The notes beneath the pieces are model-generated. The model was not told the origin of the DNA. It saw nothing but the letters and a program-made list of their open reading frames with translations, and ran no database searches. Positions 14,876-32,658 of a DNA stretch of 64,000 nucleotides are shown one piece after another. The position numbers and the translations under genes were made by a program. Each line of letters opens with the position of its first letter. Position 1 is the first letter of the stretch. Origin of the DNA: Herpetosiphon aurantiacus DSM 785 (GTDB taxonomy: Bacteria > Chloroflexota > Chloroflexia > Chloroflexales > Herpetosiphonaceae); contig CP000875.1 in the NCBI GenBank assembly GCA_000018565.1, positions 2,309,199 to 2,373,198 of the forward strand, read 5' to 3'.

Positions 14876-17800
14876 ATGATTCGCGAAACTAGTAAGCTTG
14901 CCCGAGTCGTGAGCATGTGTTTGATTCTGCTGCTAGCCTTACAAATGCTCGTTTATCCGCATGCAACGTCTGCTGCTCCCAGCAATCAAGCAACTTCCAA
15001 CCAATCACCAATAACGAGCTTAATTCGCGACCGTAATGAGCAACTTGATCCCTATTTGCAACGGGTGGCTGCTGCAGATCCCGATTTGTTTCAAGCCGCC
15101 GCCTTGTTAGCGGTGCAAGATGTGTTTAATGGCAATTTGCCCGAAATTGCAGGCGATCAGGCGATCGAGGAGCAAATTAGCTACTATCTGAATCGCGCAG
15201 CCTTGGGCTTGCCGATGCAGCCAAGCAACCTTGATCCGGCGCAGAGTTCCGCAATGCAGGATGATGCCTATTTGTGGGAGAGCAATCAGGCGGCGATAGG
15301 CACAACTTGGCAAATGACCGCCCGCCCCGATGGCGACCCGCGTTTGTTCGCCCAAGAATTTGATGCCTTGGCGGCAGCCCAAATGCCTGCTGTTGCTCCA
15401 GATTCAGCGTTTGCCCCCACTGCGCCCGTGGTTGAAGCAGCTCCTCAACCAGCGCTTGACCCAGCTGAAACGGTGGTTATTCCAGCGCTCCCAAGCAGCC
15501 CAGTTAAGCTTAAATCCCAAACCTTTATTCCAAGTCGCCCAACGAGCAGCCAATTTTTGGCCAACTTGCCCAGCCAACAAGCTGAGGCCGAATTTAGTGG
15601 CTTGCGGATTCAACCCCAAGTAGCCTTGAATAACCCAGTGCAAACGCCACATGCCAAGTTAGTGGTTACCGCAACTGCGCCATTGCAAACCAATTTCGGC
15701 TCAATCATTACCTATACTGTGACCGTTAGCAACACTGGTGGTCAAGCAGCTTCCTTGGTCGAGCTGAGCCAGCGGTTGCCAGCCAACAGTATTTTGCAAG
15801 GCTCAGTCAATGATTGTGTATTAAAAGATGGCGAACAACTGGTTTGTGCGATTGGTAATTTGAATGTCAACCAAAGCAAAACCTATCAAGTGCCCGTGTT
15901 GATGAAGGGCAATGGGACGTTGATCAGCACGCTGACGGTTAAAGATACCTTTATTGTCAACCCTGATACCAAGCCTGCCACCGCCAAAATTAGCACTAAC
16001 GTTAATTCAACTAATCGCACTCAACAAGATGTTGGCAAGATTGTGATTGCCGCTGAACAATTTACCACCATTTTTGGTCAGACTGAAGCTAGTGGTGCGG
16101 TGGAAATTGGCTTTAAAAAAGATGGCAAATATACCTATCATCTTCGGCTTGGCCCCAACGATAAAATTAAATGGGATGCTGTGGGCACGCCAACGATTAT
16201 TGAAACCTACGGTAATGTTGCCCAAATTCAAGAAAATTTTCCCTTGTTCAAGGGCGATTTTACGATTGATGTAACCAAAGATAAACCATTCATCAAGCCA
16301 AGCCCCACGATTACCCCAACCATCAAGCATTTAGCAGGCTTCCAGCTTTTAGGTAGCGCCGTGATCAGCGATGTGGCGATTTTGTCGGGCGAAGCGGGCT
16401 TTATGACTGAACTCAAAGTTTCGCTGCCTGGCATTACCACTACCTCAACCTTGACTCCAACTGCAAATATGACCACCACTACCAATTTGTTGCGGCCAAG
16501 CAGCATTTTGACGGGTACGAACCCGATTACTGGAACGAATCCTGTTTCTGGGACGGTCAAGAAAAACACCTTGCGCGTGACCGGGGTGATCAAGCCAGGT
16601 GGGAAGGGCGATGCCAAAATCAACGAATTTGAAATGTATTTTGCAGGCTTGAAGGTTAAAGTTAAAAATGCAACCTTCAGCGGCGATAAAATTAAAGTTA
16701 AGCAAGCCCTTTTGACTATGCCCAAGGAGCTTGGTGAGTTAACTGGAATTATTTCGGAGATCGAAGTAACCTCAAACTCGATCAACTTTGGTGGGGTTGG
16801 GGTCAAAATCCCGCTGCCCAATATTTATCCTTTGGGCAAGCCAATTACGGCCACAAACCCACTTACGCCAACTAGTTTATTGGCACAATCAGTGGCGCTG
16901 AGCGAAACTGGAGCCTATACGCCCGCAGTTTCGTTCATCAAAAACTCGGCCACGATTATGTACGACAGCAACGATGGCTTTAGTCTGCAAATTGATAGTA
17001 CGCTTGATTTGCATGTTGCCGATAATGATCGCAAAATTCCGGTTGAATTGAAAATCGACTGGAAAGGTCAGGTCAAAGGCACAATCAAAGAGCTGAAGTT
17101 GAAAATTGCCGGCCACGACTTAGAGATGAAAGAAGTTGAGATTAGTAATGCTGGCTTGAAAGTCAGCGAGGCAAGCTTTACGATCACCTTCCCATCTGAG
17201 AAAAAGGATGAACCTAAACCGCCTGCCGCTGGTGATCCGCCTGCTGCACCCAAGGAAGGCGATAAGAAAAAAGAAGATAAAAAACTAACGATCACGGTCA
17301 AAAAAGTTTCAATTACCAAGCAAGGCTTTGCGATTGGCGAAGGCGCAATTGCCACCGATTTGCCTGATTTTGGGCTTGGGGAGAGTATTCGCTTCACCAA
17401 AAATAAAGTTAAATTTGTCGTAACCAACCCAATTACTAGCCCAGCCATGGAGCTAGAGATTGAAGGCACGCTCAAGGTGCTGATCAAAAGCAGCGAAATG
17501 GAAACTAAATTTGCCGCCAAATGGGATAAAAAAGGCAAATTCTCGGGCAAGCTCAAGGAATTAACCCTAACGGTTGCTAGCTCTAAGCTTGAATTGAAAA
17601 ATGTTGAGTTCAATACCCAACGTTTTGCGACCAATTCGGCCAGTTTGACCTTGCCGCCGATTCTTGGCAGTACCCAAATTGCATTAACTAAAGTAGTTAT
17701 TGACGAAAATGGCCTGTCGTTTGGCGATGCTGCTGTCAAAATTCCGGTCAAATTTACGATTGGCAAACAGAATGGCGAGCCGAGCCCAACCAATTCGGTC

Positions 17801-20800
17801 ACAATTTCAGGCACGCTCGGCCTCGATTATAAGCAGGATCGATCATATAGCTTTGTGTTTGCAGGCAAAGTTTCAATTACGTTGGCCTCGCAAACTGCCG
17901 AAGCTGAAGGCCTTGTACGAATCGATAAAGATGGCAAGGTTACTGGCGATGTTGATAGTTTCGAGTTGACGATTGCTGGCATGAAGCTGGCAATCAAAGA
18001 GGCTAGCATCGAAAATGGCACGGTCAAGGCGCGTGAGGCGACCTTTGCGATTCCCAAAGAATGGGGCGGGCTATCAGTTTCGGTCTATAACATCGAAATA
18101 TCTAAAGAAGGCTTTTCGATCGGTGGTGGCTCGTTCAAATTGCCCGAAATTAAAGTTGGCGATATGTCGCTGACCCTCGAAGGTACACTCAAAAAGGAAG
18201 GGAACGGCTGGATTATCGCTGCTGGTGGTGAGTTGAAGTTGCCCAATGCGGGTGGCGCTGGCTGTAGCGGCTTAGGTGTGAGCGTCGAAATTTTTGCTGG
18301 CAGCAATCAAACTGTGGCAATGCGGATCGCACCTGCTTCGGTGGATGCCCTGAACGAATTCCAATTGCGCAAAGTTGGGGTTGTGCTCAAATGTACGATT
18401 CCTTTGGGCGCAAGCGGCTTTGATCTCACGCGGATTTCGGGCACGGTTACCCTAACCAGCAATGTGACCAAAATCGAAATGAGCGCCACGATCGAGAGCA
18501 AAATGGGGATTGGCAGCTTCCGTGCCGTGACTGCCGATGGCAATATGTCTATGGAATATGTCAAAAATCCCTATAAATTTGAGATTGGCATCGGCGCATC
18601 GATGAAGATTTTCTCGATGTTCGAAGCAGCGCGGGCCAGTGCCAAGATGCGCTTTACCGATGGCGCAGTGCCCTTCCTGTTTACCGCCGAAATGAATATC
18701 AACGCTGTGATTGCCCGTGGCAATATGAAACTGACCGCTTGGACCAAAGATGGTGCATTCAATTTGGTTGGGCGGATCTATGGCGAGGTTGGAGTTAAAC
18801 GCGGCGCATTGGTTGACCGTTGCTGGCGGATCTGGATGCCTTGGCCATTTGATGATCAAGATGTTTGTTTGACGCTGCCTGGCAGCGACCTATTTTTTGG
18901 CGCAGGCATGGAGTTTGGCAAGTTCAAGCGTGGCAATGGTGATGCTTGGGGCTTCAAAGCCAGCGTCAATATTGCCGGAGCCAACTATGGAATTTACGTT
19001 GATACCAGTGGCCGATTCAGCGTGGGCAATGTTGATGATTATCGTTTGATCGATGCACCTTCGCTGCGCCGCGCCAAGTATTTGCACGATCTGAATGCCC
19101 AACAGCAACTCAATCGCGCGAGCTTGAGCGCTGAAGATCTAGCATTGTTCAACGATTATAGTTTCAACAACCAAGAAATTATTATCAGTACCGTCGAAAT
19201 GACCCGCCCCGGCGACTTGATGATCAATATGTTGCGCTTGAGCTATGATACCGATATTCAGGTGAGCTTAGTGCGCCCCGATGGTTTGCGAATGACTGGC
19301 AGCAATGCGGCTGGTAATCTGAATTTCAGCGAAACTTTGGTTGACCCACGCGATATTCGCGACCCAATTACCCACCAAGGTAACGCTGCTGCACCACCAA
19401 TGCTGCAAACTAGCCTGAATGTGACCAATGCTGCGCTTGGTGAATGGAAGTTGGTCTTGAATCGTGCTCCTGCCTATGATTTTATTATCAACGTTAGCGG
19501 CACGATTTATGGCCCGCCAATTAGCGACTTGGTCGTGATCAACCAGAACGATGGCAATAATAGCGTCGATTTGGCGTGGACGCAGAGCACGCCATTTACT
19601 TCGACTGCGACGATTTATGCGAGCCAAGATACGATTACTGATACCGCTAGCTATACCAAAACCAACAACGTTATGCGCCCCGATGGGATTATGGCGACCG
19701 AGACGATTACGGTCGATGTTGGCACGGTAACCAAGTTTAGTGGTTATCCCTTGGTCAGCTTCGATTATGCCGAGGGCTTGCAAAATGCCGACGAAACGCT
19801 CGATCTTTCCTCGCTCAAGAGTGGGGTTTACAATCTGTGGCTCGAAGTCAACGACGGCCAGAATCCGCCAAGCCGCCATTATTTCCCGAACACAGTCAGC
19901 GTGTTGCACGCTTGGGAGCCAACATGGACAACCACCAGCGTGATTACCCCAAGCTATGGCAGCTTGGATGTGGCTTGGACGAAGCACCCTGATCCTGATG
20001 TTGATGGCTATGAAATTCACGTGCGCAACGAAGCTGATCAATTTGATGAAGATAGCTATATTGTCGATGTTGGCGATGCTTTATCACAGACGATCACGGG
20101 CTTGAATGCGGGTGAAAACTATGAGCTAACGATAATTGGCTATGATTCGGGCACTGGTCGAACTTCGGCAGCCGCACCAATTACGGCTACGCCATTGATT
20201 GCGCCATTCAGTATTACGGCCAACCCAACCGAATTGAGCTTGGATGCTGGGGTAGCGGGCACAAGCAACTTAACGCTTGCTTCGAGCATCAATCCCTACC
20301 CAGAGCAAGTATTTATTGAAGTGACTAGCTTGCCTGAAGGTTTCGCCGCCCATATCACCACGCCAATCGTAACCCCAACCTTGGCTGGAGTGCAATCGAG
20401 TGTGGTGCTCACGCCTGCCGCTAGTTTGCTTGGCGGAACCTACACTGTCACTTTGGTGGCGCTATCCAACGGAACCGAGCGCTATCTCGATATTCCGGTG
20501 GTGCTGAATGAGCCAAACTTTATGCTGCGTACTAGCGTTGATGATTTGACCTTGACCAACTTCAATAGCACCAGCGTTGCGATTGATGCGACCTATCAAT
20601 TCAGCGAACAGGATGAAATTTTCGTTGATGTGCTGGATATACCGTTTGGGGTCGATTGGGCGTTTACGCGCTCGAGCTTTATGCCAGGCGAACAAACCCG
20701 CCTGATCTTGACCGATACGATTGATCTGGAGTATGGCGACTATCCAATTACCTTGCTGGCCTTTGATAACGAGCATGCCTACACCAAAACCCTGACCTTG

Positions 20801-23122
20801 GCGGTCACCGGCTTCTATATCGAAGTTGCTGAAGATCAAGCGGCTCGACCACATGAAATTGCAGCACCCTACATTTTGAACATTGATGGCAACGAATGGG
20901 ATTCACCAATCGAATTCAGCATCGAGGAGCCTGCCGACGAAGAATTGTTCTTTGTTAGCTTGTCGAGTGCCACGGCTGAAGTTGGTCAATTGGTCAACCT
21001 TGAACTGAGCGCCTTGATCGATACTGCGCCTGGAACCTATGAAGTGTTGCTGCATGCCAGCAGCGAAGGCTATACCCAGACCTTGCCATTGTATGTAACG
21101 GTCGAAGCGAATGCCATGGCAACCGATTTGGTGATGGGCTACCAAGGCTTGATTGGCGGCTATATCGTGGCTGGCGAAAGCTACAGCTATACGCTTGCTC
21201 CCAAGAATATTAGCTTGAATCCAGCGCTTGATGTTAGCGTGATTGATCGGATGTTGGAAAATAGCTTGGTAACCTTGACTGACGCTGCTGGCTGTGGGGT
21301 TGCGACGAATGGCGCTGCGACAACCCTTAATTGTAGCCTTGGCGATATTGCGGCAGGTAGCCAACATAACGCCACAACCCTGACGTGGCAGATTAACCCC
21401 GAGGTTGCCGAAGGCACGCTAATTTCGCATACCAGCGAGTTAGTGATTAACGATACGAGCTTGTATAGTGAAACTTCGGCGATCGATAACGTTGGTGAGT
21501 TGGCTTTTACCGTCGAACGTTTATCGGATTTAGCCTTGACGGTAGACTACGATCAAATGGTGAATGCTGGCGAATTGACCACGCTCACCGCGACAATCAC
21601 CAATACTGGCCCTTCGGATGCAGCAAATGTGGTGGTCGAGTTCTACTTGCCAGCCGGAACTAGCTTAGCATCGGCTGATGTTGGCTGTATCCAAGAAGCT
21701 GAGTTGGTGCGCTGCGAGGTTGGCGTGATGGGGGTTGATCAGGTTGAGACCTTCGCGATTCAGCTTGCGGTTGGGGCAAATCAACGTGACTATCTCGAAA
21801 CGTTGATAGCCGTTGATAGCGATTCATACGACGAAGATTTGCTCAATAACTCGGTGTATAGCTTTGCCGAAGTTGTGGCAGTAGCTGATTTGAGCATGAC
21901 AATTGCACCAAATCGCACGACCATCAACGAAGGTGAGGTTGTTGAATATCTCTTGACGATTGTCAATCAAGGTTCAGCAACAGCCAATAATCTGCAGATT
22001 GAGCTTGATTTGCCCGACGAGGCCGATATTGTTGAGGTGCGGATTGGCAATGTGCTTGAAACGCCCGAAAGCTTGACGCTTGAGCCAGGTGCAACATTAA
22101 CGGCAACGGTTGGCATTCTCTACCCTGAGGATGATGCGGGTACGCCAATTCAGGTTGAAGCCTTTGCGTTTGCCGATGAGGCCAACGAGGTGAATGCAAT
22201 CAGTGTTGATGTAGCGGTGGCGAATCTGGCTCCAAGCGGAATCTTTACCAATACGCTGGTAGTCAACGAAGGCGAATTCGGCATTTTGGCCGTGATGATC
22301 GACGATGCTGGCAACGAGTATGATCCATTGACCGTTGCTTGGGATCTCGATAACGATGGCGCATTTGACGATTCGACCACAGCGATCACCCGTTTCGATG
22401 CCCGCTCGTTTGACGGAACTACCACCCGCCCAGTCGCGGTCAAGATTCTTGATGATGATGGCGGTGAAACGATTGTCAATGGCACGGTGCTGGTACGCAA
22501 TGTTGCGCCAACCGTCGCAGCTGGACCTGATCAGTTCCAAATCTACGATCAACAATTTACCCTCGATGTGGCTTTGACCGACCCATTTGCCAATGACACC
22601 AAAACTGCCAGCATCGATTGGGGCGATGGGGAGATCGATACGATTCCATTGGCGGCCCAAGTGACCAGTACCAGTGCTAGCCATAACTTTAGTGCAATTG
22701 GCAACTACACGACCAAGGTTTGTGTAACCGACGATAATCAAGGCCAAGGCTGCGATGAAGTTGTATTGTATGCAATGTGTCGCGATAATGGTTTGTTGGT
22801 GCGGGTTGGGCAGCAAAACCAGCAAATCAGTATTATTTTGGAGAATGCCAGCGGCAACCTCGCAATTCCAATGAGCATGCCATTGAGCTTGTATCACGGC
22901 AATACGGTGCTGCAAACCTTTGTGCTTGATCAGCCGTTGGCGGTGGGAGCTTCACGCACGCTCAACTATACTTGGGCCAACGCGCCGTTGAGCGCCAACT
23001 TACGCGTTGCTACCGACGACGATGGCACAGGCACAAAATCGACCGATCTCTGTTCGGGTAGTGTGTACAAGTGGGCAATTAACACCACAATCTATGCTCC
23101 GGTGATTATGGTTAATCGCTAA
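14876..23122 (+). CDS. Giant secreted multidomain surface protein (2748 aa; DUF11, Fn3, PKD modules)
   Basis: The start is ATG 14876, with AAAGGGG 5 bases upstream, rather than the in-frame TTG at 14858. A signal peptide ends near ATSA (about residue 31). Following modules: a low-complexity Ala/Pro region; a DUF11-type domain (about 260-365); four imperfect 125-residue beta-rich repeats (bases about 16615-18170); a beta-rich segment with cysteines; Fn3-like domains (about 19530-20190, DLAWT and DVAWTKHPDPDVDGYEIHV); three Ig-like units (20210-21110); three DUF11 units (21120-22210); two PKD-like units (22230-22770, IDWGDG). It ends with TTIYAPVIMVNR, resembling the (Y)xPLV segments of the FG-GAP proteins here. 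Probably an extracellular or cell-envelope adhesin or scaffold; no enzyme motif is seen. Confidence 0.85.
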   Translation: MIRETSKLARVVSMCLILLLALQMLVYPHATSAAPSNQATSNQSPITSLIRDRNEQLDPYLQRVAAADPDLFQAAALLAVQDVFNGNLPEIAGDQAIEEQISYYLNRAALGLPMQPSNLDPAQSSAMQDDAYLWESNQAAIGTTWQMTARPDGDPRLFAQEFDALAAAQMPAVAPDSAFAPTAPVVEAAPQPALDPAETVVIPALPSSPVKLKSQTFIPSRPTSSQFLANLPSQQAEAEFSGLRIQPQVALNNPVQTPHAKLVVTATAPLQTNFGSIITYTVTVSNTGGQAASLVELSQRLPANSILQGSVNDCVLKDGEQLVCAIGNLNVNQSKTYQVPVLMKGNGTLISTLTVKDTFIVNPDTKPATAKISTNVNSTNRTQQDVGKIVIAAEQFTTIFGQTEASGAVEIGFKKDGKYTYHLRLGPNDKIKWDAVGTPTIIETYGNVAQIQENFPLFKGDFTIDVTKDKPFIKPSPTITPTIKHLAGFQLLGSAVISDVAILSGEAGFMTELKVSLPGITTTSTLTPTANMTTTTNLLRPSSILTGTNPITGTNPVSGTVKKNTLRVTGVIKPGGKGDAKINEFEMYFAGLKVKVKNATFSGDKIKVKQALLTMPKELGELTGIISEIEVTSNSINFGGVGVKIPLPNIYPLGKPITATNPLTPTSLLAQSVALSETGAYTPAVSFIKNSATIMYDSNDGFSLQIDSTLDLHVADNDRKIPVELKIDWKGQVKGTIKELKLKIAGHDLEMKEVEISNAGLKVSEASFTITFPSEKKDEPKPPAAGDPPAAPKEGDKKKEDKKLTITVKKVSITKQGFAIGEGAIATDLPDFGLGESIRFTKNKVKFVVTNPITSPAMELEIEGTLKVLIKSSEMETKFAAKWDKKGKFSGKLKELTLTVASSKLELKNVEFNTQRFATNSASLTLPPILGSTQIALTKVVIDENGLSFGDAAVKIPVKFTIGKQNGEPSPTNSVTISGTLGLDYKQDRSYSFVFAGKVSITLASQTAEAEGLVRIDKDGKVTGDVDSFELTIAGMKLAIKEASIENGTVKAREATFAIPKEWGGLSVSVYNIEISKEGFSIGGGSFKLPEIKVGDMSLTLEGTLKKEGNGWIIAAGGELKLPNAGGAGCSGLGVSVEIFAGSNQTVAMRIAPASVDALNEFQLRKVGVVLKCTIPLGASGFDLTRISGTVTLTSNVTKIEMSATIESKMGIGSFRAVTADGNMSMEYVKNPYKFEIGIGASMKIFSMFEAARASAKMRFTDGAVPFLFTAEMNINAVIARGNMKLTAWTKDGAFNLVGRIYGEVGVKRGALVDRCWRIWMPWPFDDQDVCLTLPGSDLFFGAGMEFGKFKRGNGDAWGFKASVNIAGANYGIYVDTSGRFSVGNVDDYRLIDAPSLRRAKYLHDLNAQQQLNRASLSAEDLALFNDYSFNNQEIIISTVEMTRPGDLMINMLRLSYDTDIQVSLVRPDGLRMTGSNAAGNLNFSETLVDPRDIRDPITHQGNAAAPPMLQTSLNVTNAALGEWKLVLNRAPAYDFIINVSGTIYGPPISDLVVINQNDGNNSVDLAWTQSTPFTSTATIYASQDTITDTASYTKTNNVMRPDGIMATETITVDVGTVTKFSGYPLVSFDYAEGLQNADETLDLSSLKSGVYNLWLEVNDGQNPPSRHYFPNTVSVLHAWEPTWTTTSVITPSYGSLDVAWTKHPDPDVDGYEIHVRNEADQFDEDSYIVDVGDALSQTITGLNAGENYELTIIGYDSGTGRTSAAAPITATPLIAPFSITANPTELSLDAGVAGTSNLTLASSINPYPEQVFIEVTSLPEGFAAHITTPIVTPTLAGVQSSVVLTPAASLLGGTYTVTLVALSNGTERYLDIPVVLNEPNFMLRTSVDDLTLTNFNSTSVAIDATYQFSEQDEIFVDVLDIPFGVDWAFTRSSFMPGEQTRLILTDTIDLEYGDYPITLLAFDNEHAYTKTLTLAVTGFYIEVAEDQAARPHEIAAPYILNIDGNEWDSPIEFSIEEPADEELFFVSLSSATAEVGQLVNLELSALIDTAPGTYEVLLHASSEGYTQTLPLYVTVEANAMATDLVMGYQGLIGGYIVAGESYSYTLAPKNISLNPALDVSVIDRMLENSLVTLTDAAGCGVATNGAATTLNCSLGDIAAGSQHNATTLTWQINPEVAEGTLISHTSELVINDTSLYSETSAIDNVGELAFTVERLSDLALTVDYDQMVNAGELTTLTATITNTGPSDAANVVVEFYLPAGTSLASADVGCIQEAELVRCEVGVMGVDQVETFAIQLAVGANQRDYLETLIAVDSDSYDEDLLNNSVYSFAEVVAVADLSMTIAPNRTTINEGEVVEYLLTIVNQGSATANNLQIELDLPDEADIVEVRIGNVLETPESLTLEPGATLTATVGILYPEDDAGTPIQVEAFAFADEANEVNAISVDVAVANLAPSGIFTNTLVVNEGEFGILAVMIDDAGNEYDPLTVAWDLDNDGAFDDSTTAITRFDARSFDGTTTRPVAVKILDDDGGETIVNGTVLVRNVAPTVAAGPDQFQIYDQQFTLDVALTDPFANDTKTASIDWGDGEIDTIPLAAQVTSTSASHNFSAIGNYTTKVCVTDDNQGQGCDEVVLYAMCRDNGLLVRVGQQNQQISIILENASGNLAIPMSMPLSLYHGNTVLQTFVLDQPLAVGASRTLNYTWANAPLSANLRVATDDDGTGTKSTDLCSGSVYKWAINTTIYAPVIMVNR

Positions 23123-23328: not shown

Positions 23329-25947
23329 CTAAGGAACCCAAATTAACCAGACGGGACTACTGCCAACCAGCGAGCCATAGACATCGCGAAAGGCAATTTC
23401 GAGCGATTGACCTACCCACGTTTCAAGCGTTGCGCGGGGAATTTCCACGATCATTGGCGTTGTGGCGATCTGGCTAAATTGCACTTGGCCGTTGATTCGC
23501 ACCACCAGTTCATCGTCAACTTGGATTGGTTGTACGCTCTGTGGTGATGCTGAAAAATAGAATTTGCCGCCTGGCGGTAAGCTTGTGACAAGCTGAATCG
23601 TGGTTGTATAGTAGGTTTCGCCTTGAACAGTGATCGGGCGAATTGGAATCGCTTGATCATTGAGTGTTGCCAAGACGCTGATTTGACGTAGCGAGACTAG
23701 GGGTAGGTAGGCCGATCGTTGACTGCTGGCGCTCGGCGTTGGAGTTATCGTTGGGGTTGGGGTCGGCGGTGGCGCAGCCGGACAACTATTCAACAGCACG
23801 GCCAAGGTATTCGAGAGATAATTGGCTCCCGCCAGATCGATCTTGCCATCGTGATTAAAGTCGCCAGCACTTAAACCACGGTTGGCAACCCGTGGGCCAA
23901 AAGCGCTGAGTGCTGCGAAAGTTCCATCGCCATTGCCCCGCGCAATCGTGACACTTGATTCTGAGGTATAGGATACCGCTAAATCGAGCCGCCCATCAAG
24001 ATTAAAATCGTGGCTCAAGACATCCATCGGCAACAGATTACTGGGCATGGTGGCGGTAACGCTGAATGCTCCTGTGCCTGTGCCGCGCAGAATCGAAAGT
24101 GTGTGAGCACTACGATTGGTGACCGCTGCATCGGCAATGCCATCACGATTCCAATCGCCAAAGTTCACCGAGGTTGGGCCAACCCCAACCGCTGTGTTGA
24201 TGGTTGAGCCAAACGTGCCATTGCCATTGTTCAAGCGAACGCTCAGGGTATTTGCCACGTAATTAACCCACGCCAGATCGATCGCGCCATCGCGATCAAG
24301 GTCAATGCTGGTGAGTTTGAAGGGATGCGCATCGCTTGCATAATCAGTTGCTGCGCCAAAAGCACCGCTGCCATTGCCCATGCGCACGCTGATCGAATTG
24401 GCGTTGTAGTTGGCGCTGGCAAAGTCGGGGCTGCCATCGTTATTGAAATCGGCAATCGTGATTTCAACCGGATTAAAGGGCGTTGGATAGCTGGTGGGGG
24501 TAAAATTTCCAGCTCCATTATTCAGCAGCACAAGCGCTTGATTGGCCAAAAAGGCGGCCACAATCAAATCGTTGCGGCCATCGCGATTGACATCTCCAAC
24601 CGCTACATCGGATGGTTGCAGCCCAAGGCTGATACTTATGGCGCTGCTAAACGATCCAGTGCCATTATCATAGCGAATAATGATGCTGTTGGTGCTTGGG
24701 TTGGCGATTACCAAATCGAGATCACCATCATTATTCATATCGCTGGTGGTGCTGCCAACCAAGGTTTCGGCTCCAATCGCTGTGGTTGTTGCGCTAAAGC
24801 CAATGCCACCACATTGGCTATCGCTGCGGTTCAGCAAAACCCCAACAATTGCGCCTTCGTTGCTGGTTGTTAAATCGTTGCGGCCATCGCGGTTGAAATC
24901 GGCAGCGGCAACCGCCCGTGGCACAAAGGCTCCGCTAAATGAGCCTGCATCATGAAATATGCCGTTGCTGCTGCCTTGCAAGACCCACACATTGCCGCTG
25001 ATCGTTGCCACCGCTAGGTCTTGGTTGCCATCGTTGTCGAGATCGCTGGCAGTGAGCCATTCGGGGGTTGGGCCAACTGGATAGTAGGTTGGTGCGCCGA
25101 AACTACCGTTAGCACTGCCAAATACCACCGCGACCTGATTGGTTGGCGGTCGGATGACGATTGCTAGATCACGGTTGCCATCGTGATTCCAATCGCCAGG
25201 AACAATACCATAGGGAAGATCGCTCAGCGGATAATTGACCGCGCCAGTGAATCCGCCTGCGCCATTGCCGAAACCAACGGTAAAAGCTTTGTCGGTATAG
25301 ATCGTTTTGGCCACATCCATACGATTGTCGTGGTTAAAATCGGCCACGGTTAGGCCATAGCCCCCGCCGCCAACTGTGCTCAGCAAAGGGCTGGCGAACC
25401 CGCCGCTACCATTGCCCAGCGCAACCCCAACATTATTGGTTGCGGTTAATCCGCCAACAACTAGGTCGGGGTGACCATCACGATTCAGATCGGCGATTTG
25501 AATTGATTCGGGTGCGCCAACCGTTGCCAGATTAACTGCCGCGTTGAAACTGCCTGTGCCTGTGCCAAGCAACAGCGAGACTGAAGCTGAGCCAAAATTA
25601 ACTACTGCCAAATCATCGTTGCCATCGTGGTTGACATCACTGACGGCGACTGAGATTGGAAAATTGCCAGTTGCATAGGCTACCGTCGCTGCAAATGTGC
25701 CATCACTATTGCCAAGCAACACATTAATTTCATTGGTGGCGCGTGAGGTTGCCGCGAGATCGGCCACGCCATCGCGATTGAAATCGCCAGTTGCCACAAA
25801 TGCACCGCTGCCGGTTGTGGGATAGGTTACCACCGGATCAAACACAATCGTGGCGGCGGGAACCGCTTGAGCTTTGGGATGCTGCATGATCGTTATCAAC
25901 AGCGCTGCCATGAGCAAGCTGCTAAGTATTTTGAGCGAAATAGGCAT
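23329..25947 (-). CDS. Secreted FG-GAP/VCBS double beta-propeller protein (14 Ca-binding motifs)
   Basis: 872 residues from the ATG at 25947, chosen because GGAGG lies 7 bases upstream and a signal peptide (MPISLKILSSLLMAALLI, cut after AQA) begins there; an earlier in-frame ATG would overlap the upstream gene. Fourteen D-x-(N/D)-x-D-G-x-x-D motifs (GDFNRDGVADLA, SDVNHDGNDDLA and so on) occur as seven, then a spacer containing a single cysteine, then seven, implying two seven-bladed propellers. A Thr-Pro linker and AYLPLV precede a C-terminal domain of about 115 residues shared with the protein at 30604-32658. Role is likely extracellular, binding or structural. It lies 50 bases after the DUF3179 gene. 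Confidence 0.9.
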   Translation of the reverse strand: MPISLKILSSLLMAALLITIMQHPKAQAVPAATIVFDPVVTYPTTGSGAFVATGDFNRDGVADLAATSRATNEINVLLGNSDGTFAATVAYATGNFPISVAVSDVNHDGNDDLAVVNFGSASVSLLLGTGTGSFNAAVNLATVGAPESIQIADLNRDGHPDLVVGGLTATNNVGVALGNGSGGFASPLLSTVGGGGYGLTVADFNHDNRMDVAKTIYTDKAFTVGFGNGAGGFTGAVNYPLSDLPYGIVPGDWNHDGNRDLAIVIRPPTNQVAVVFGSANGSFGAPTYYPVGPTPEWLTASDLDNDGNQDLAVATISGNVWVLQGSSNGIFHDAGSFSGAFVPRAVAAADFNRDGRNDLTTSNEGAIVGVLLNRSDSQCGGIGFSATTTAIGAETLVGSTTSDMNNDGDLDLVIANPSTNSIIIRYDNGTGSFSSAISISLGLQPSDVAVGDVNRDGRNDLIVAAFLANQALVLLNNGAGNFTPTSYPTPFNPVEITIADFNNDGSPDFASANYNANSISVRMGNGSGAFGAATDYASDAHPFKLTSIDLDRDGAIDLAWVNYVANTLSVRLNNGNGTFGSTINTAVGVGPTSVNFGDWNRDGIADAAVTNRSAHTLSILRGTGTGAFSVTATMPSNLLPMDVLSHDFNLDGRLDLAVSYTSESSVTIARGNGDGTFAALSAFGPRVANRGLSAGDFNHDGKIDLAGANYLSNTLAVLLNSCPAAPPPTPTPTITPTPSASSQRSAYLPLVSLRQISVLATLNDQAIPIRPITVQGETYYTTTIQLVTSLPPGGKFYFSASPQSVQPIQVDDELVVRINGQVQFSQIATTPMIVEIPRATLETWVGQSLEIAFRDVYGSLVGSSPVWLIWVP

Positions 25948-25997
25948 TGATTTTCCTCCAAAGGTTGCACTGCGGCAAGCATAGGGCTTGAGCGTAA

Positions 25998-27116
25998 TCA
26001 AACCGTATCCATCGCATCAACATCGGAGTAGAGCCGCAGGGTTTGGGTTCGCTCACCAATCAACGCCGCGAAGGCAAACCAAAAATGATTGCCATGAATA
26101 ATTGGGGTAAGTTGTCGCCCTTGTAGTGGGCCTGCTAGCGCTCGTCCGCTAATATCCCAACGACTGTTGGTTTGGTGGTCATAAATCGCGTGATCACGCG
26201 ATTCAAAGCTCAGCAGCATGCCATCCAATTGGCGTTGCCAAGCTGTGCCCATGCCAGTTGCATGCGATTGGGCGATGGTGGCGGCATCAACCGCTGAAGC
26301 CATGCCTGCTTGATAGAAAATTGCGATCGAAGTATCCAGATAGTGATCGTTTATTACCAGCCGACGTGCTAAAATACTGAAGGGATAGGCGAGCGCGGCG
26401 TTACCAATCACCAAACCAACCACCCGTTCCAGCGCTGGTAGTTGAGGATTGGGGCGTTGTTGCAATAGCCATGGAGTGGTTTGTTGATCGTAGGCAATGT
26501 AGGGATTTTGGCCATAACTGCGCCGAAAGCCAGTTTGGCGCGATAGTACACGGCTCGTCGGGGCTTGCTCGCAGGCAATCTGCCACGCAACCAAGAGGCT
26601 TGGCAGCATTTGGAGTTGGCTTCCGGCAAAATGTCCAACCAGACCCAACCCCGTTGCTTGTTGCCACAACGATTCGGTTTGACGATCCCACATTACTAAA
26701 TCACTTTTGCGCAGCAAACCTGAAACGCCAAAGGTTAATCGTTGGTTGGCGACTTGGCGCTCGAACACAACACCAATATTGCATAATGGGCAAAAAGTCA
26801 CGGCAATTGGCAGCTCGCCAAGCCAATCGTTCACAATTTCATGCCACATCAAGATTTGCAGCGGATAGATTGTGGTGTGCTGCTGGTTGGATACAACTAA
26901 AACTGGATCATCAGGGCTGAGCCAATCGTTGGCTTGATCAATCGACTCAAATTGCGGCTGATTGATCGGTGGAATGCCATCACGCCGTGGATTGCCCAGC
27001 GTGAACTCGCGATAATCAACCAACTGACGGCTAAAATCGGTCTGCCAATCGTGGCCAAATGTGCGCGTGGTTGGTTCATGGGCGGTTGGTTGCGGGGCTT
27101 GTGGTCGTGTGCTCAT
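25998..27116 (-). CDS. DUF3179 domain protein
   Basis: 372 residues. WLSPDDPVLVVSNQQHTTIYPLQILMWHEIVND followed by PIAVTFCPLCNIGVVFER is the typical DUF3179 core with its Cys-Pro-Leu-Cys motif, and TESLWQQATG and QTGFRRSYGQNPY are further conserved blocks. The function of the family is unknown; many members are exported but no signal peptide is evident here. GGAGG is 8 bases before the ATG. It precedes the FG-GAP gene on the same strand, probably as one transcript. Confidence 0.87.
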   Translation of the reverse strand: MSTRPQAPQPTAHEPTTRTFGHDWQTDFSRQLVDYREFTLGNPRRDGIPPINQPQFESIDQANDWLSPDDPVLVVSNQQHTTIYPLQILMWHEIVNDWLGELPIAVTFCPLCNIGVVFERQVANQRLTFGVSGLLRKSDLVMWDRQTESLWQQATGLGLVGHFAGSQLQMLPSLLVAWQIACEQAPTSRVLSRQTGFRRSYGQNPYIAYDQQTTPWLLQQRPNPQLPALERVVGLVIGNAALAYPFSILARRLVINDHYLDTSIAIFYQAGMASAVDAATIAQSHATGMGTAWQRQLDGMLLSFESRDHAIYDHQTNSRWDISGRALAGPLQGRQLTPIIHGNHFWFAFAALIGERTQTLRLYSDVDAMDTV

Positions 27117-27528
27117 TAGGGGTATCCTCCAGTTTCAAGAAGCGGTTTTGAACAAATTTGGGTAAGCCCCGACCCCTGACCAGAGTGATATTGGCACGCC
27201 AGTCAATTTGGATGGATCGTCAATTGGCATGCCCTCACCCCCTGCCCCCCTCTCCCGCATGCGAGGCGAGGGGGAACCGCACCACCATGATTATTCGATC
27301 GCCCCTCGCCCGCCGCCGTGGGAGAGGGGTTGGGGGTGAGGGGTCTTAACCTACCCTTGTATGGCTACTTTCCGCCGAGCGAGCGAGGGGAACCCTCGAT
27401 CATAAATGTTGGACTCCCCTCGCCCGCCGCCGTGGGAGAGGGGTTGGGGTGAGGGAACACCAGATCAACTGAGAATGTAGTTTAGCGTCCGAGCGTAGTC
27501 AATCCGTAATCACTGAAGGACAGGGATC
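27117..27528. repeat. Intergenic region with two C/G-rich palindromic repeat elements (27231-27343, 27373-27455)
   Basis: A 27117-27528 gap between divergent genes with no gene seen. Element one starts CCCTCACCCCCTGCC and ends GGGGTTGGGGGTGAGGGG; its arms are inverted copies around a variable centre. Element two has a degenerate left arm (CCGAGCGAGCGAGGGG) and a complete right arm. Same family as elements at 32676, 33715, 36003, 37732, 42409 and 44227. Confidence 0.85.
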
Positions 27529-30504
27529 ATGCAGTTTTGCTTTTTTGGCCTTGTGCGTGCCACATTCAACGATCAACCGCTGCAATTTCGCTCGAATAAA
27601 GTTCGGGCACTTTTGGCGATTATCTGGCTTGATCCGCGTCGCCAGTGGGCACGAGATGAGCTGGCAAGCTTGCTTTGGGAAGATTATTCGAGCAGCAAAG
27701 CTCGCACTAATTTGCGCGTAACCTTTTCGCAACTACAACAAAGCCTGCATCCGTTGTATCAGGCCTTGCCTGCGCGTGCGCCGTTGTTGGTCGCTGATCG
27801 GGCACGGATTGCGCTGCAAGCCGAAGCATGGCCCGAATTGCAGGTTGATGTCTGGCGGTTTGATCAAGCAATTGCCGCCTACCACACTCATAACCATGAG
27901 CATGGAGTGATATGTGCTGCTTGTCTTGAACAATTAACGAGCGCAGTTGAGTTGTATCAGGGCGATTTGTTGACTCCCTTTGCGATTGAGGCGAGTAGTG
28001 GCTTTGATGCGTGGCTGGAACGCCAGCGCGAGGCACGACATCAACAACTGCTGCTGGCCTACGATGTTTTAGCCGAGCATGCCCTGCGAATGCGCGATTT
28101 TCATGAAGTTCAGCGGCTTTCAACCGCCCAATTGCTGCATTTACCTTGGCATGAGCAGGCTCATCGGCGCTTGATGATTAGTTTTGCCGAGTTGGGCCAT
28201 CAGAGTATGCTGCGCGAACAGTATTTGCTCTGCCAACGAACGCTTGAGCGCGAACTGGGGATTGGCCCTGATGCGGAGACCCAAGCCCTTTACCAGCGTT
28301 TAGTCACAACTTCGACCACGCTGCCCCTGCCTAATCCAACTCTAAAAACCTTGCCTGAACTAAGCAAACCATTGATTGGCCGAACCCATGAATTAGCGCT
28401 CTTGCACAGCTTGATTGAGCAAAAACAGCAACGTTTGGTGACCTTGCTCGGCTTGGGTGGCATCGGCAAAACAAGCTTAGCCTTGGCCTATGCTCATGCT
28501 GCCCAAGCGGCTTTCGATGCTGTGTGGTTTGTGAGTTTTGCGGGTAGTGCTGGCGAATCACTCGCATCCGACCACCATCGGCTTAGCGCAACCATCGCGA
28601 CGACACTGGGGTTGTCGCAACAACTGCACACGCCCCAAGCAGCCTTGCTACATTACCTTGGGCAGCGCTCGGTCTTGTTGGTTTTGGATAATCTTGAGCA
28701 TTTGGTGCACGAGGCGCTGCATGTGCAAGCAATTCTGGATGCTTGCCCGCATGTGGTGGTGCTGGTAACTTCACGCGAACCACTCAATATTCAAGCTGAG
28801 CAGCGGGTGCAACTGCATGGTTTGGCTTTGGCAAATGCTGATCAAGCGTTCGCAGCCAGTGCTCAATTATTTCTGGCACATGGAACCAACGCTACCAGCC
28901 AAACCTTGGCCGATCCTGCCAGCATGGAATGGATCGATCGGATTTGTCGCATGCTTGATGGTAATCCATTGGCAATTGAATTGGCCGCCCGTTGGGTGCA
29001 CTATCTTGGGTTGGATGAAATTGCCACGGCGATTGAGCAGGATATGGATTTTCTACAAACTAGCGTGCGTGATTTGCCCGACCGTCATCGCAGTATGCGA
29101 GCGGTGTTTGATGGCTCGTGGCGCTTGCTTTCGCGTCATGAACAGCGCGTGCTCAGTCAGGCTAGTTTGTTTCGGGGCAGTTGGTCGCTCACGGCGATGC
29201 GCAGTATTTGCACGGTGTCGCGGCTGACCATTCGCGAGCTGATCGATAAAAGTTGGCTAACTCAGCATGCAGGCCGCGCGATGATCCATCGTTTGATTCA
29301 ACGCTATGCCCATGAACAATTGCAACGCATGCCGACTACCGCTGCAACGACTGCAAAACGCCATAGTATTTACTACTTGGCCATGCTTCGGCGGCATACT
29401 CCCGCACTCAGTGGCTCGCAACCACAAGCGAGCGTTCGACTGTTACGCGACGATCTTGATAATATTCGTCAAGCTTGGCTTTGGGCGGTAGATCATGGCG
29501 CAACCCATTTGGTGCATGCAAGTCTGGCTGGTTTATCGCAACTCTACGATCTTTTAGGCTTGTATCACGAGGCGATTCGCGTGCTGCAAACCAGCATCAC
29601 CCAGATTCAACGCCAACCAACCAGCCTACAGCAACAACGCCTGCTGATGCGCTTGACGATTGCGCTCGCCAGCCATTTCAATGCAGCGGCAGATTATCGG
29701 ACTGCCGCACAGGTTGGGCAACAGGCCTTGGATTTAGCTCAGACCCTTGATGTTCCGCAGCAGATAGCCGCCTGTTTGTTGCAAATTGGTATTGCCCAAC
29801 GCAATTATGGTTTGTTTGCTGACGCCGAACAAAGCCTTCAGCGCTCGATCGCGATTGCCCAAGCGTTGCCGTTGAAGCAGGTCTATGCCCATGCGCTGCG
29901 TAGTTTGGGCTTTTTGGCCTATCTCCAAGGCAATTATCCCGTGGCGTTGCGCTACCACGAGCAGGCGTTGGCGTTTTATCGGTTGCTTCACGATCAACGG
30001 AGTATTAATTTGGCCCAAAATACCTTGGGCTTAATTGCGCTTGCTCAGGGCGATCTTCAGCAGGCGTGGGACCAATTGGCGGTAGTATTGACGCGTTGTC
30101 AAACGCTTGAAGATGGTTGGGGCGAGGCTTTGACCCTGAATAATCTGGGAGCTGTGGTGCAGGCTCAGGGTGATCCAGCTCGCGCGATCGATTATTATCA
30201 AAAGGCATTAAGCATTCGCCAACGGATTGGCGATCGTTGGGGCGAGGGCATTAGTCTGAGCAATCTGGCGGCGGCATGGCACGAGCAGGCAGATTACCAA
30301 ACTGCCTATCAAAGCGCAATGCAAGCCATTCAGCATACCACTGCAATTCATGATTTGCCGACCAAAGCCTATGCCTTGACCACCCTTAGCCAGATTCTGC
30401 GGGTACTGGGCGATCAGGCTGGGTCAATCGCCGCCCGATCAGAGGCCACAACATTGCGCACCCAGCTTGGACAAGATCATTTAATTAGTCAAACCATTGA
30501 TTAA
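27529..30504 (+). CDS. SARP-type transcriptional regulator with BTAD, NB-ARC ATPase and TPR repeats
   Basis: 991 residues, AfsR-like layout. Residues 1-95 form an OmpR-type winged helix (FGLVRATFNDQPLQFRSNKVRALLA..., LASLLWEDYSSSKARTNLRVTFSQL); about 100-240 is the bacterial transcriptional activation domain; GLGGIGKT at 308-315 is Walker A and VLLVLDNL about 382-389 Walker B; the NB-ARC GNPLAIELAARW motif follows; the last 350 residues are TPRs (ALRYHEQALAFYR, ALTLNNLGAVVQAQGD, ISLSNLAAAWHEQ). Probably an ATP-gated activator. Its own target is not evident; the FG-GAP gene 99 bases downstream on the same strand is a candidate. Confidence 0.92.
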   Translation: MQFCFFGLVRATFNDQPLQFRSNKVRALLAIIWLDPRRQWARDELASLLWEDYSSSKARTNLRVTFSQLQQSLHPLYQALPARAPLLVADRARIALQAEAWPELQVDVWRFDQAIAAYHTHNHEHGVICAACLEQLTSAVELYQGDLLTPFAIEASSGFDAWLERQREARHQQLLLAYDVLAEHALRMRDFHEVQRLSTAQLLHLPWHEQAHRRLMISFAELGHQSMLREQYLLCQRTLERELGIGPDAETQALYQRLVTTSTTLPLPNPTLKTLPELSKPLIGRTHELALLHSLIEQKQQRLVTLLGLGGIGKTSLALAYAHAAQAAFDAVWFVSFAGSAGESLASDHHRLSATIATTLGLSQQLHTPQAALLHYLGQRSVLLVLDNLEHLVHEALHVQAILDACPHVVVLVTSREPLNIQAEQRVQLHGLALANADQAFAASAQLFLAHGTNATSQTLADPASMEWIDRICRMLDGNPLAIELAARWVHYLGLDEIATAIEQDMDFLQTSVRDLPDRHRSMRAVFDGSWRLLSRHEQRVLSQASLFRGSWSLTAMRSICTVSRLTIRELIDKSWLTQHAGRAMIHRLIQRYAHEQLQRMPTTAATTAKRHSIYYLAMLRRHTPALSGSQPQASVRLLRDDLDNIRQAWLWAVDHGATHLVHASLAGLSQLYDLLGLYHEAIRVLQTSITQIQRQPTSLQQQRLLMRLTIALASHFNAAADYRTAAQVGQQALDLAQTLDVPQQIAACLLQIGIAQRNYGLFADAEQSLQRSIAIAQALPLKQVYAHALRSLGFLAYLQGNYPVALRYHEQALAFYRLLHDQRSINLAQNTLGLIALAQGDLQQAWDQLAVVLTRCQTLEDGWGEALTLNNLGAVVQAQGDPARAIDYYQKALSIRQRIGDRWGEGISLSNLAAAWHEQADYQTAYQSAMQAIQHTTAIHDLPTKAYALTTLSQILRVLGDQAGSIAARSEATTLRTQLGQDHLISQTID

Positions 30505-30603
30505 TTGAACCCTGCGATCAGCCTGCAATTGTGTTTACGATCCGATTACGGGCGCGAGTTAGACTGGCGCGAGTTAGCTGGCTCCATGATTAAAGGATGC
30601 ACT

Positions 30604-32658
30604 ATGAGTACCCCAAAACCTATCGTTTATGCCCGCATGCTGCTTGGATTGTTATTGATTAGCATAAGTTTTGGCCTTGGATTGCCGCGAATCGCCGCCC
30701 AAACTCCCCGTGACGAGGCAACGGAGCGCTTAAACTCAGCCGATTGGGCGGCAATTCAAGGCCTGCTTGCACCAACTACGGCGATCTCTGGCTCCAAATT
30801 TCAAGCTGGCTACTTGAAGGCCGCCCAAGTTTCGGCTGGCGATAGCTTTGGCGCGAGTGTGGCAATTTCTGGCGATACGGTGGTGGTCGGCGTTCCAGCC
30901 GAGTCAAGCAGTTTGGCAGGTGTGCAAAATAGTGCTACGCCGACCATCAATGCTTTGGCTGCCCAAGCCGGTGCCGCCTATGTGTTTGTACGGGGGAGTG
31001 CTGGTTGGCAGCAACAGGCCTACCTCAAAGCCTCTGAGGTGAGCGCCAATGATCAATTTGGTTGGAGTGTGGCGATCTCCGGCGATACGATTGTGGTTGG
31101 CTCACCGAGAGAGAGCAGTAGTACGGTTGGCGTGCAAAATAGTGCGACACCAACCGTCAATAATGATCTTGGTGGGGCTGGCGCGGCCTATGTGTTTGTG
31201 CGCACTGGCTCAACTTGGAGTCAACAAGCGTACTTCAAAGCCTCACAAGTTACATCTGGCGATTGGTTTGGCTGGAGCGTGGGTTTAGCATCAAACACGA
31301 TTGTGGTTGGAGCTTATGGCGAAGATAGCAATATCGTTGGCGTGCAAAATAGTGCTACGCCGACCGTCAATGAAGCGGCTACCGCAGCGGGTGCGGCCTA
31401 TATATTTGTGCGCACTGGCTCAACTTGGAGCCAACAAGCCTACCTTAAAGCTGCCCAAATTAATACTGATGATGTGTTTGGGTGGAGTGTTGCAGTAGCT
31501 GGCGATACGGTGATCGTTGGTGCGCCAGGTGAGGACACCAGCATTGCAGGAGTGCAACATAGTGCTACGCCGACGGTGGATGAAACAGCTCTCGCAGCAG
31601 GGGCAGTCTTTGTATTTACCCGCAGTGGCTCAAGCTGGAGTCCGCAAGTCTTTGTGAAGGCCTCACAGGTTACACCTGGCGATCAATTTGGCTATAATCT
31701 GGCGATCGCTGGCAATACGATTGTGGTTGGCGCTCCCTACGAAGATTCAAGCACCTCGGGCGTGCAGCATGGCGCTAGCCCAAGTGTCGATGAGCTAGCA
31801 TCGTTCGCTGGAGCTGCCTTTGTTTATACCCAAAACGCGGGAGTATGGAGCCAACAAGCCTACCTCAAAGCCTCGAATGTGGCGGATGGTGATCGCTTTG
31901 GCATGAGTGTGGCGATTGATGCCAATACGATTGTGGTTGGTGCGCCGGAAGAGGATAGTGGCATTGCTGGGGTGCAAAATAGTGCACTACCCAACGCTGA
32001 TGAGAGCGCCATCCAAGCAGGAGCCGCCTATGTGTATGCACGGAATGCTACAACTTGGAGCCAGCAAAGTTATCTAAAGGCTTCGCAGGTTTCGACTGGC
32101 GATTATTTTGGGCGTGGGGTTGGGGTGGCGGGCGATATGCTGGTGATTGGGATTCCGCTTGAAGATAGTGCTCGCAGTGGCATCCAAAATAGTGCTACGC
32201 CGAGTGTTGATGAACTTGCTGCTGATTCAGGTGCGGCCTTAATTATTGATACAACCTATCGTTCGTATAGCCCGTTGGTTCAGCGCATGACCCTCTTGGC
32301 CTTGCTTACGATCAATTCGACGGCTATTCCCATTCGGGCGGTGACGCAACAGGGCGAAGTATTTGCAAGCTTCACGGCAACATTGCCTACCACGATTCCA
32401 GCTGGTGGCCATATTTATCTTTCGGCTAGCCCTAGCTCGTTGCAACCAACCTTGGTCGATGATCGGATTATCATTCGCGATGGGGCTAACATAATTTTTC
32501 AACATACCTACGATCTTGAGAGCAATGGCGAGCTTGTTGAGATTCCGTGGGAAGTTATTAATGCGGCTAGCGGCCATAGCCTGACGATCACTTTTGTTGA
32601 TGTCTCGGCAGGGTTGGTTGGGGCAACGCCGATCTATCTGATTTGGGTGGCTGAGTAG
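30604..32658 (+). CDS. Secreted seven-repeat FG-GAP (integrin-like propeller) protein
   Basis: 684 residues from ATG 30604 (AAAGGATGC upstream); an in-frame TTG at 30505 is rejected. Signal peptide to about residue 30 (LLGLLLISISFGLGLP...IAAQ). Seven repeats of about 75 residues each read YLKASQVxxGDxFGxSVAI-GDTIVVGAPxEDS then GVQNSATPTV and AGAAYVFVR, giving one predicted seven-bladed propeller. YSPLV then leads into a C-terminal domain of about 120 residues (LALLTINSTAIPIR ... PIYLIWVAE) homologous to the end of the protein at 23329-25947. DNA repeats are strongly similar (NSATPT coded AATAGTGCTACGCCGAC), suggesting recent internal duplication. No enzyme motif. Confidence 0.9.
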   Translation: MSTPKPIVYARMLLGLLLISISFGLGLPRIAAQTPRDEATERLNSADWAAIQGLLAPTTAISGSKFQAGYLKAAQVSAGDSFGASVAISGDTVVVGVPAESSSLAGVQNSATPTINALAAQAGAAYVFVRGSAGWQQQAYLKASEVSANDQFGWSVAISGDTIVVGSPRESSSTVGVQNSATPTVNNDLGGAGAAYVFVRTGSTWSQQAYFKASQVTSGDWFGWSVGLASNTIVVGAYGEDSNIVGVQNSATPTVNEAATAAGAAYIFVRTGSTWSQQAYLKAAQINTDDVFGWSVAVAGDTVIVGAPGEDTSIAGVQHSATPTVDETALAAGAVFVFTRSGSSWSPQVFVKASQVTPGDQFGYNLAIAGNTIVVGAPYEDSSTSGVQHGASPSVDELASFAGAAFVYTQNAGVWSQQAYLKASNVADGDRFGMSVAIDANTIVVGAPEEDSGIAGVQNSALPNADESAIQAGAAYVYARNATTWSQQSYLKASQVSTGDYFGRGVGVAGDMLVIGIPLEDSARSGIQNSATPSVDELAADSGAALIIDTTYRSYSPLVQRMTLLALLTINSTAIPIRAVTQQGEVFASFTATLPTTIPAGGHIYLSASPSSLQPTLVDDRIIIRDGANIIFQHTYDLESNGELVEIPWEVINAASGHSLTITFVDVSAGLVGATPIYLIWVAE

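Follow-up and report, generated by a model that had tools for sequence, protein, structure and literature searches.

The question raised by this locus is why two secreted proteins built on different FG-GAP repeat families end in the same way. They are encoded by a 64,000-nucleotide stretch of Herpetosiphon aurantiacus DSM 785, referred to below as the window (C1:2309199-2373198; the genome comprises 6,785,430 bases on 3 contigs, including C1 with 6,346,587 and C2 with 339,639 bases), together with a giant secreted protein containing DUF11 and PKD domains (Table 1). The initial annotation had claimed that the last about 115 residues of the two FG-GAP proteins align, that this part, which follows a (Y)xPLV motif, looks like a surface-anchoring or sorting module, typical of the lineage and not a known one, and that the giant protein carries such a motif at the same kind of position. 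As outlined below, a lineage-specific C-terminal module is real, and the motif is a separate tag resembling one that has already been named in a public database.

Pfam assigned FG-GAP_3 repeats to protein 1 (E 1.4e-85, 13 stretches) and FG-GAP_2 repeats to protein 2 (E 3e-72, 7 stretches). A single pairwise comparison of their C-terminal parts gave 50 identities over 116 positions (43%, E 4e-32), in agreement with the claimed alignment, and the homologous part begins just past YLPLV or YSPLV, respectively, and extends to the stop codon, a length of about 120 residues. The two domains are homologous, and their similarity is more than chance, because the H. aurantiacus genome contains eight copies, of which the weakest has an E-value of 4.8e-14. 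The giant protein is not among these eight matches. Among 60 related genomes, this one included, we found 28 copies in seven genomes, all belonging to the family of H. aurantiacus: eight copies in its own genome, five in G001, three in G002, seven in G003, two each in G004 and G005, and one in G007. The carriers are thus all six genomes of the genus and one of the three others in the family, the two remaining ones being only 75-76% complete. In every one of the 28 copies the domain occupies the extreme C-terminus, directly before the stop codon, and its length is nearly constant (126-131 residues counted from the motif). The two window genes also lie approximately 9 kb apart in G001 and G003.

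A profile search of 400 Chloroflexota genomes, in which 10 candidates were scored per genome, so that the counts are in principle lower bounds, returned the same seven genomes and one extra match (G349, E 0.003), which we judged to be due to chance, the matching protein reading like a CpaB-type pilus protein. Scanning public species genomes with two peptide patterns, which miss diverged copies and may leave out records close to the window's genome, yielded three loci (H. giganteus, H. geysericola, and H. llansteffanensis) among 301 matching stretches. No relative was found on plasmids, and none was confirmed among 121 stretches from viral contigs. In the collections searched, the domain therefore occurs in one bacterial family only, and the expectation that it is typical of the lineage was borne out. 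All eight carriers of H. aurantiacus have a signal-peptide-like N-terminus and, as judged by hydropathy, no later transmembrane-like segment, and are thus predicted to be secreted; this includes protein 1, whose probable start is the ATG of MPISLKILSS... according to our reading of the sequence, and protein 2, for which comparison with orthologs points to the ATG of MSTPKPIVYARM. For most of the other 20 copies, the locus examined extended only 1.5 kb upstream from the domain, and N-termini were checked only in part.

In terms of sequence family, the domain has no convincing match in Pfam, NCBIfam, or PDB sequences, and isolated domains matched no NCBIfam family at E-values up to 1. A Pfam scan of the 28 members gave scattered weak matches to four families (DUF4992 in two members, BppL_N in one at E 0.002, Transmemb_17 in one, and GST_N_2 in one), none of which is a carbohydrate-binding module (CBM), and we set them aside as unsupported by the other members. 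A model for a protease dependent on the type IX secretion system (T9SS) and TIGR04183 gave matches below their cut-offs to the FG-GAP or other parts of two proteins, outside the domain. AlphaFold2 models of the two copies (predicted local distance difference test score, pLDDT, of 86.9 and 86.4; predicted template modeling score of 0.78) show a β-sandwich of ten strands and one short helix, and the conserved core consists of VDD, F-x-D, and Y-L-h-W. Structural comparison was done with VIA-align and Foldseek. For copy 2 the top row was the C-terminal domain of Vip3 (Z 8.5, root-mean-square deviation 4.8, 110 residues aligned), and the N-terminal sugar-binding domain of a glycoside hydrolase family 2 (GH2) beta-glucuronidase scored similarly (Z 8.3, 2.9, 106 aligned); for copy 1, beta-glucuronidases were the top row, again through this GH2 domain (Z 7.2, 3.1, 105 aligned). 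CBM rows had Z-scores of 6.0-6.8 for copy 2, and one had 6.1 for copy 1. Jelly-roll domains (GH2, Vip3, and CBM), the sugar-binding domains of GH2 above all, were the best matches to the predicted models, aligning over 100-110 residues with moderate scores (Z 6-8.5). The comparison covered fold families ranked by Foldseek, and the domain may also fit families outside that ranking. On the strength of these models a jelly-roll is a reasonable reading of the general arrangement, and assignment to any particular jelly-roll family would be weak. The claim that the module is not a known one therefore holds for its sequence family and fails for its general fold, which is predicted to be a common, CBM-like jelly-roll.

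The motif has a different status. Residues 1-6 of the modeled segment, which hold it, have pLDDT values below 50 and lie outside the fold in both copies. The motif is conserved despite this position: when the 28-row alignment was reduced to 15 clusters at 80% identity, columns 1-5 contained Y (12 clusters) or F (3), L (12), P (14), L (8) or F (6), and V (13), with entropies of 0.35-1.27 bits, and entropies rose to 1.97-3.01 bits in columns 6-13. The pattern [YF]xP[LFM][VIL] fits 27 of the 28 copies, the exception being YLALV. A similar motif is known in NCBIfam as the "YLP-box putative sorting motif", described by the models NF050076 (sort_motif_YLP) and NF053834 (ultrashort_CTERM). Since these models give the three motifs of the window no score, we name the latter YLP-box-like by resemblance; of three other carriers scanned, only that of G007 (L021) matched, with 11.1 bits for NF053834 (cut-off 10) and 12.0 bits for NF050076 (cut-off 15). 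The (Y)xPLV motif and the domain are two different things, and the initial interpretation was not supported as stated: the motif lies outside the fold and resembles a separate tag that is terminal in many secreted proteins. The parallel drawn with the giant protein stands in part: its motif is of the same kind, and it forms the very C-terminus of the protein, whereas about 120 residues follow the motif in the FG-GAP proteins.

How common are such terminal tails? NCBIfam YLP models matched three of the five tail proteins scanned, and NF050076 exceeded its cut-off in 49 of 60 relatives. Both models are very short, NF050076 giving matches in 10 of 14 control genomes at E-values up to 10 and exceeding its cut-off in 2, and NF053834 exceeding its cut-off in 11 of 14, and we used them as a name and lead only. 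The 16 matches of NF050076 in the H. aurantiacus genome comprise 12 terminal, 2 internal, and 2 unresolved ones. All 12 terminal matches have a lysine or arginine two residues past the core, a residue that the model favors, and several other terminal tails in this genome have neither. In total, we collected 21 H. aurantiacus proteins that end at or soon after a YLP-like box, 19 from 17 regions fetched after earlier tail signals, plus C1:2737182-2750294 and the giant protein. A hydropathy scan evaluated by eye found a hydrophobic stretch near a plausible start in 18 of the 19 proteins from the fetched regions. At C1:409000-418300 (L245:77-9108), four tandem genes with Thr/Pro linkers display a clean series of terminal YLP-boxes (PVYLPLVSKDN, PVYMPLVGKDQ, PVYLPLVSKGE, and PVYLPLVVRGE).

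The positional preference of the core was measured at the DNA level. The pattern Y-[LF]-P-[LF]-[VIM]-x-R-stop matched 61 times across 20 of 151 Chloroflexota genomes, and 45 of these matches fall in the 16 same-order genomes listed, H. aurantiacus included; 30 of the 45 came from one genus (G011, G014, and G020) and 6 from G007. This strict pattern is absent from H. aurantiacus itself and occurs once each in two of the four other genomes listed for its genus. The reversed pattern gave 17 instead of 61 matches overall, and 5 instead of 45 in the same-order genomes. As this control is not codon-aware, a sense-codon control was added, in which the core is followed by a GNN codon. It gave 82 matches, 22 in the 16 same-order genomes (versus 45 followed by a stop) and 60 outside the order (versus 16, of which two end in TGG and one has an inner stop), both patterns being scanned in DNA unrestricted to genes and the control covering GNN codons only. 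Within genes, a stop occurs once per few hundred codons and GNN codons make up roughly a third. The C-terminal bias of the YLP-type core in the same-order genomes is therefore strong, because stop-followed matches are twice as numerous as GNN-followed ones while stops are far rarer than GNN codons in genes. In the 12 pattern loci that were read, the N-terminus of most proteins is truncated, and two open reading frames (ORFs) are shorter than 100 amino acids, so secretion is mostly unproven there. A loose protein pattern was enriched at C-termini 3.2-fold in 985 H. aurantiacus ORFs (9 tail matches) and 3.7-fold in G028 (3 tail matches), and not at all in the G013 sample. Of the nine H. aurantiacus tails, we kept five (C1:345231, C1:2737182, C1:4660855, C1:4849564, and the giant protein) and dropped four (C1:49590, C1:2626890, C1:2840988, and window positions 12338-12982), which were unlike the box or located in a membrane protein.

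Box and domain also separate within one protein family. Among the FG-GAP_2 paralogs of H. aurantiacus, the domain is present in protein 2 and in the proteins encoded in L010 and L014, and absent from three others that terminate at the box or shortly past it, encoded at C1:2199394 (YLPFVATSDRAAAQTAAQ), C2:193793 (YLPWAGRE), and C2:129124 (YLPLTTRGE). In the sister genus represented by G007, the ortholog of protein 1 (49% identity) has the box FLPVITSK and then, in place of the domain, a low-complexity tail rich in Thr and Pro. Because paralogs and orthologs exist in box-only and box-plus-domain forms, the domain behind the box is optional. A translated search reading through stops detected no domain remnant at C1:2199394, and with no remnant seen, loss and late gain of the domain are indistinguishable at this gene.

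The domain is present on unrelated passengers. Five types were found, FG-GAP_3, FG-GAP_2, RCC1 plus Calx-beta, and two unnamed by Pfam, and no glycoside hydrolase family exceeded its cut-off in the passengers scanned. The copies of H. aurantiacus are mostly 30-50% identical to each other. The histories of domain and passenger disagree: the domains of L013 and L014 are 61% identical on unrelated passengers (passenger E 0.42), and protein 2 and L014 are 57% identical in the passenger but 37% identical in the domain. On the domain tree, the nine FG-GAP_2 rows fall in three places, and a single clade was rejected (approximately unbiased test, p-AU 0.013); every other passenger type represented by several rows forms a single branch. 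In G002, the neighboring genes L025 and L031 are alike in 119 of the last 123 alignment columns, in 350 of 378 nucleotides of the box-domain part, and in 58 of 60 nucleotides from the stop codon onward, and have a near-identical linker end, box, and domain in common. Their passengers are divergent, nine of ten passenger blocks having 10 to 17 identical positions per 40 columns, a pattern that fits gene conversion or unequal exchange. Two H. aurantiacus carriers (L011 and L012, in the C1:1387984 and C1:745897 regions) have passengers with repeated His-Cys...Cys blocks; these gave no Pfam match at E-values up to 0.01 and are possibly an undescribed repeat protein.

What, then, might the domain do? 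To our knowledge, protein retention on the surface of monoderm Chloroflexota is poorly understood, and we know of no enzyme or receptor for the YLP-box. Our literature searches returned nothing that joins Herpetosiphon with FG-GAP or Chloroflex with YLPLV, the term YLP-box was absent, and broader searches gave nothing relevant. The reading that we favor, and to which we would give an even chance, is that the domain is a family-specific accessory jelly-roll, galactose-binding or CBM-like, that retains secreted proteins on the wall or sheath of the cell that makes them. Carriers would be exported by Sec and then released outside the membrane, where the jelly-roll would bind wall polysaccharide or sheath non-covalently and so retain the passenger. 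The domain, which on this reading would have been gained rather than lost behind the box, would add to or replace the role of the terminal YLP tail, with a division of labor between box and domain, and the Thr/Pro linker, where present, would separate passenger from module and could act as a recombination joint. For the order, passages in PMC6210107 and PMC3368417 describe ornithine peptidoglycan and a disputed sheath, and a 1989 reference cited in PMC3368417 has, according to its title, the peptidoglycan-polysaccharide complex of the wall of this species as its subject. A passage in PMC6210107 also mentions outer membrane vesicles of Herpetosiphon, therefore the envelope picture is not simple.

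Several observations weigh against this interpretation. A PDB profile search with the domain gave a best E-value of 0.72, so that no solved structure was matched by sequence; the AlphaFold2 models were built from only five sequences each; Foldseek returned nothing under an E-value of 0.001 for either copy; and Z-scores of 7-8.5 are in the range that the tool calls a possibly common arrangement, with Eph receptors, Cry toxins, and viral capsids also among the alignments. A jelly-roll is no proof of a ligand, and ligand-binding residues were not identified in the domain. On the side of the box, neither NF050076 nor NF053834 gave a match at E-values up to 10 to the C-terminal part of any of the three window proteins, two of the eight H. 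aurantiacus boxes are weak (YLALV and YAPML), the basic residue that trails the core of many terminal boxes is found at the same position in only 5 of the 15 domain clusters, and an FG-GAP_2 homolog in G008 ends with neither box nor domain. Finally, all six passenger labels require five changes on the domain tree, the least possible, so that domain exchange has been occasional and could amount to one acquisition per passenger type.

Among the alternatives, an outward-facing jelly-roll that binds glycans of prey or of solid surfaces, retention being left to the YLP-box alone, is unlikely. In its favor are the same CBM-like predicted fold, the description of the genus as a predator in a passage of PMC6210107, and the passengers, which are repeat proteins of kinds often linked to adhesion. 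Against it, the near-constant length and terminal place of the domain on five passenger types fit a constant role better than the recognition of varied prey. We would give similarly long odds to a two-stage C-terminal surface system in which the internal YLP-box would be a site of sorting or processing and a glycan-binding, mobile jelly-roll behind it would determine whether a protein remains attached to the filament, is released by cleavage, or passes to the wall, the module being mixed onto repeat proteins by recombination through Thr/Pro linkers. Somewhat less probable still is a C-terminal pro-domain or chaperone-like cap that, once the protein is exported, would be cleaved off at the YLP-box or close to it. 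The mature end would then be the box, as in the paralogs that end there, and the box is indeed conserved directly before the fold, where the confidence of the prediction is low; yet the domain is conserved as much as one working in the mature protein would be, and we know of no processing enzyme, none having been searched for. A plain stabilizing or dimerizing fold, spread by duplication, with the YLP-box kept by descent only, has the same low standing: common ancestry could explain the co-occurrence and the conserved core could be purely structural, whereas the unrelated passengers, the near-identical L025/L031 pair, and the conservation of the box across divergent H. aurantiacus copies argue for a portable function. 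A catalytic or cytoplasmic domain, finally, is not supported, as no enzyme family matched convincingly and the eight H. aurantiacus carriers look secreted.

Whichever reading is adopted, one genome that contains box-terminal and box-plus-domain forms on paralogous passengers is a natural experiment, which allows a direct test of the role of the box, be it cleavage site, docking strand, or simple linker, and of whether the jelly-roll takes its place. In addition, the domain serves as a marker for proteins of this gliding predator that are probably located on its surface.

Table 1. Coordinates of the features discussed, numbered within the window unless another sequence is named.
Feature	Position	Strand	Basis or remark
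Secreted FG-GAP_3 repeat protein 1	23329..25947	-	Listed ORF 23329-26001, TTG start
Protein 1, signal-peptide-like N-terminus	25864..25947	-	Hydropathy maximum 2.66; signal end judged by eye
Protein 1, Thr/Pro/Ser-rich linker	23710..23781	-	Sequence
Protein 1, internal YLP-box-like motif YLPLV	23695..23709	-	Conserved columns 1-5; pLDDT <50, outside fold
Predicted C-terminal jelly-roll-like domain, copy 1	23332..23682	-	Homology and model
Secreted FG-GAP_2 repeat protein 2	30604..32658	+	Listed ORF 30505-32658, TTG start
Protein 2, internal YLP-box-like motif YSPLV	32266..32280	+	Alignment, conservation, model
Predicted C-terminal jelly-roll-like domain, copy 2	32284..32655	+	Homology and model
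Giant secreted DUF11/PKD protein, without C-terminal domain	14858..23122	+	ORF, Pfam, tail survey
Giant protein, terminal YLP-box-like tail TTIYAPVIMVNR	23084..23119	+	Sequence; no score from NCBIfam models
Ortholog of protein 1 in G007	L190 (G007:C156), 238-2421 and flank
Regulator	27529-30504	+	BTAD, NB-ARC, TPR repeats
DUF3179 protein	25998-27116	-	E 2.7e-95
DDE transposase	33822-35066	+	DDE_Tnp_1, E 2.4e-12

Three neighboring genes complete the locus (Table 1). The regulator, which we take to be SARP/AfsR-like from its architecture, lies immediately upstream of protein 2 on the same strand, and its stop codon abuts the listed ORF of protein 2 with zero gap (the probable start of protein 2 being at 30604); judged from this arrangement, the two genes are possibly co-transcribed. 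The DUF3179 gene and the listed ORF of protein 1 run on the same strand and share 4 bases at the TTG start of the latter, and the transposase gene is located approximately 1.2 kb downstream of protein 2.

How does this arrangement compare with known systems? The T9SS C-terminal sorting domain is likewise a beta-sandwich at the C-terminus of diverse proteins secreted by a gliding bacterium, and it is comparable in the way it works only. The isolated domain described here differs from it in having no NCBIfam match at E-values up to 1, and the hosts differ as well, since passages in PMC6210107 and PMC3368417 describe the order of Herpetosiphon as monoderm, without a lipopolysaccharide outer membrane. 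LPXTG, PEP-CTERM, and MYXO-CTERM resemble the present case in being C-terminal tags on many secreted proteins. These signals contain a terminal transmembrane segment, whereas hydropathy indicated no C-terminal transmembrane-like segment in any of the eight H. aurantiacus carriers. With the sugar-binding domain of GH2 beta-glucuronidases (7pr6 and 3k46), the predicted β-sandwich aligns over approximately 105 residues at 2.8-3.1 Å; identity is about 10%, and unlike the GH2 domain, the domain described here is terminal, has no catalytic domain beside it, and sits on secreted repeat proteins. Jelly-roll CBMs (CBM6, 16, 22, 29, and 36) are alike in general fold and size, as far as the model goes, and in their accessory place on secreted proteins, but there is no sequence match to them and Z-scores are only 6.0-6.8. 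No further example of a folded domain behind a YLP tag is known to us, no systematic search having been made. The YLP-box of NCBIfam is located at the extreme C-terminus and has a trailing basic residue, whereas the box described here often lacks this residue and is internal, with a predicted folded domain of about 120 residues after it, the giant protein alone among the three window proteins having a terminal tail; the hydrophobic core, Y-L-P-h-h, is the same in both.

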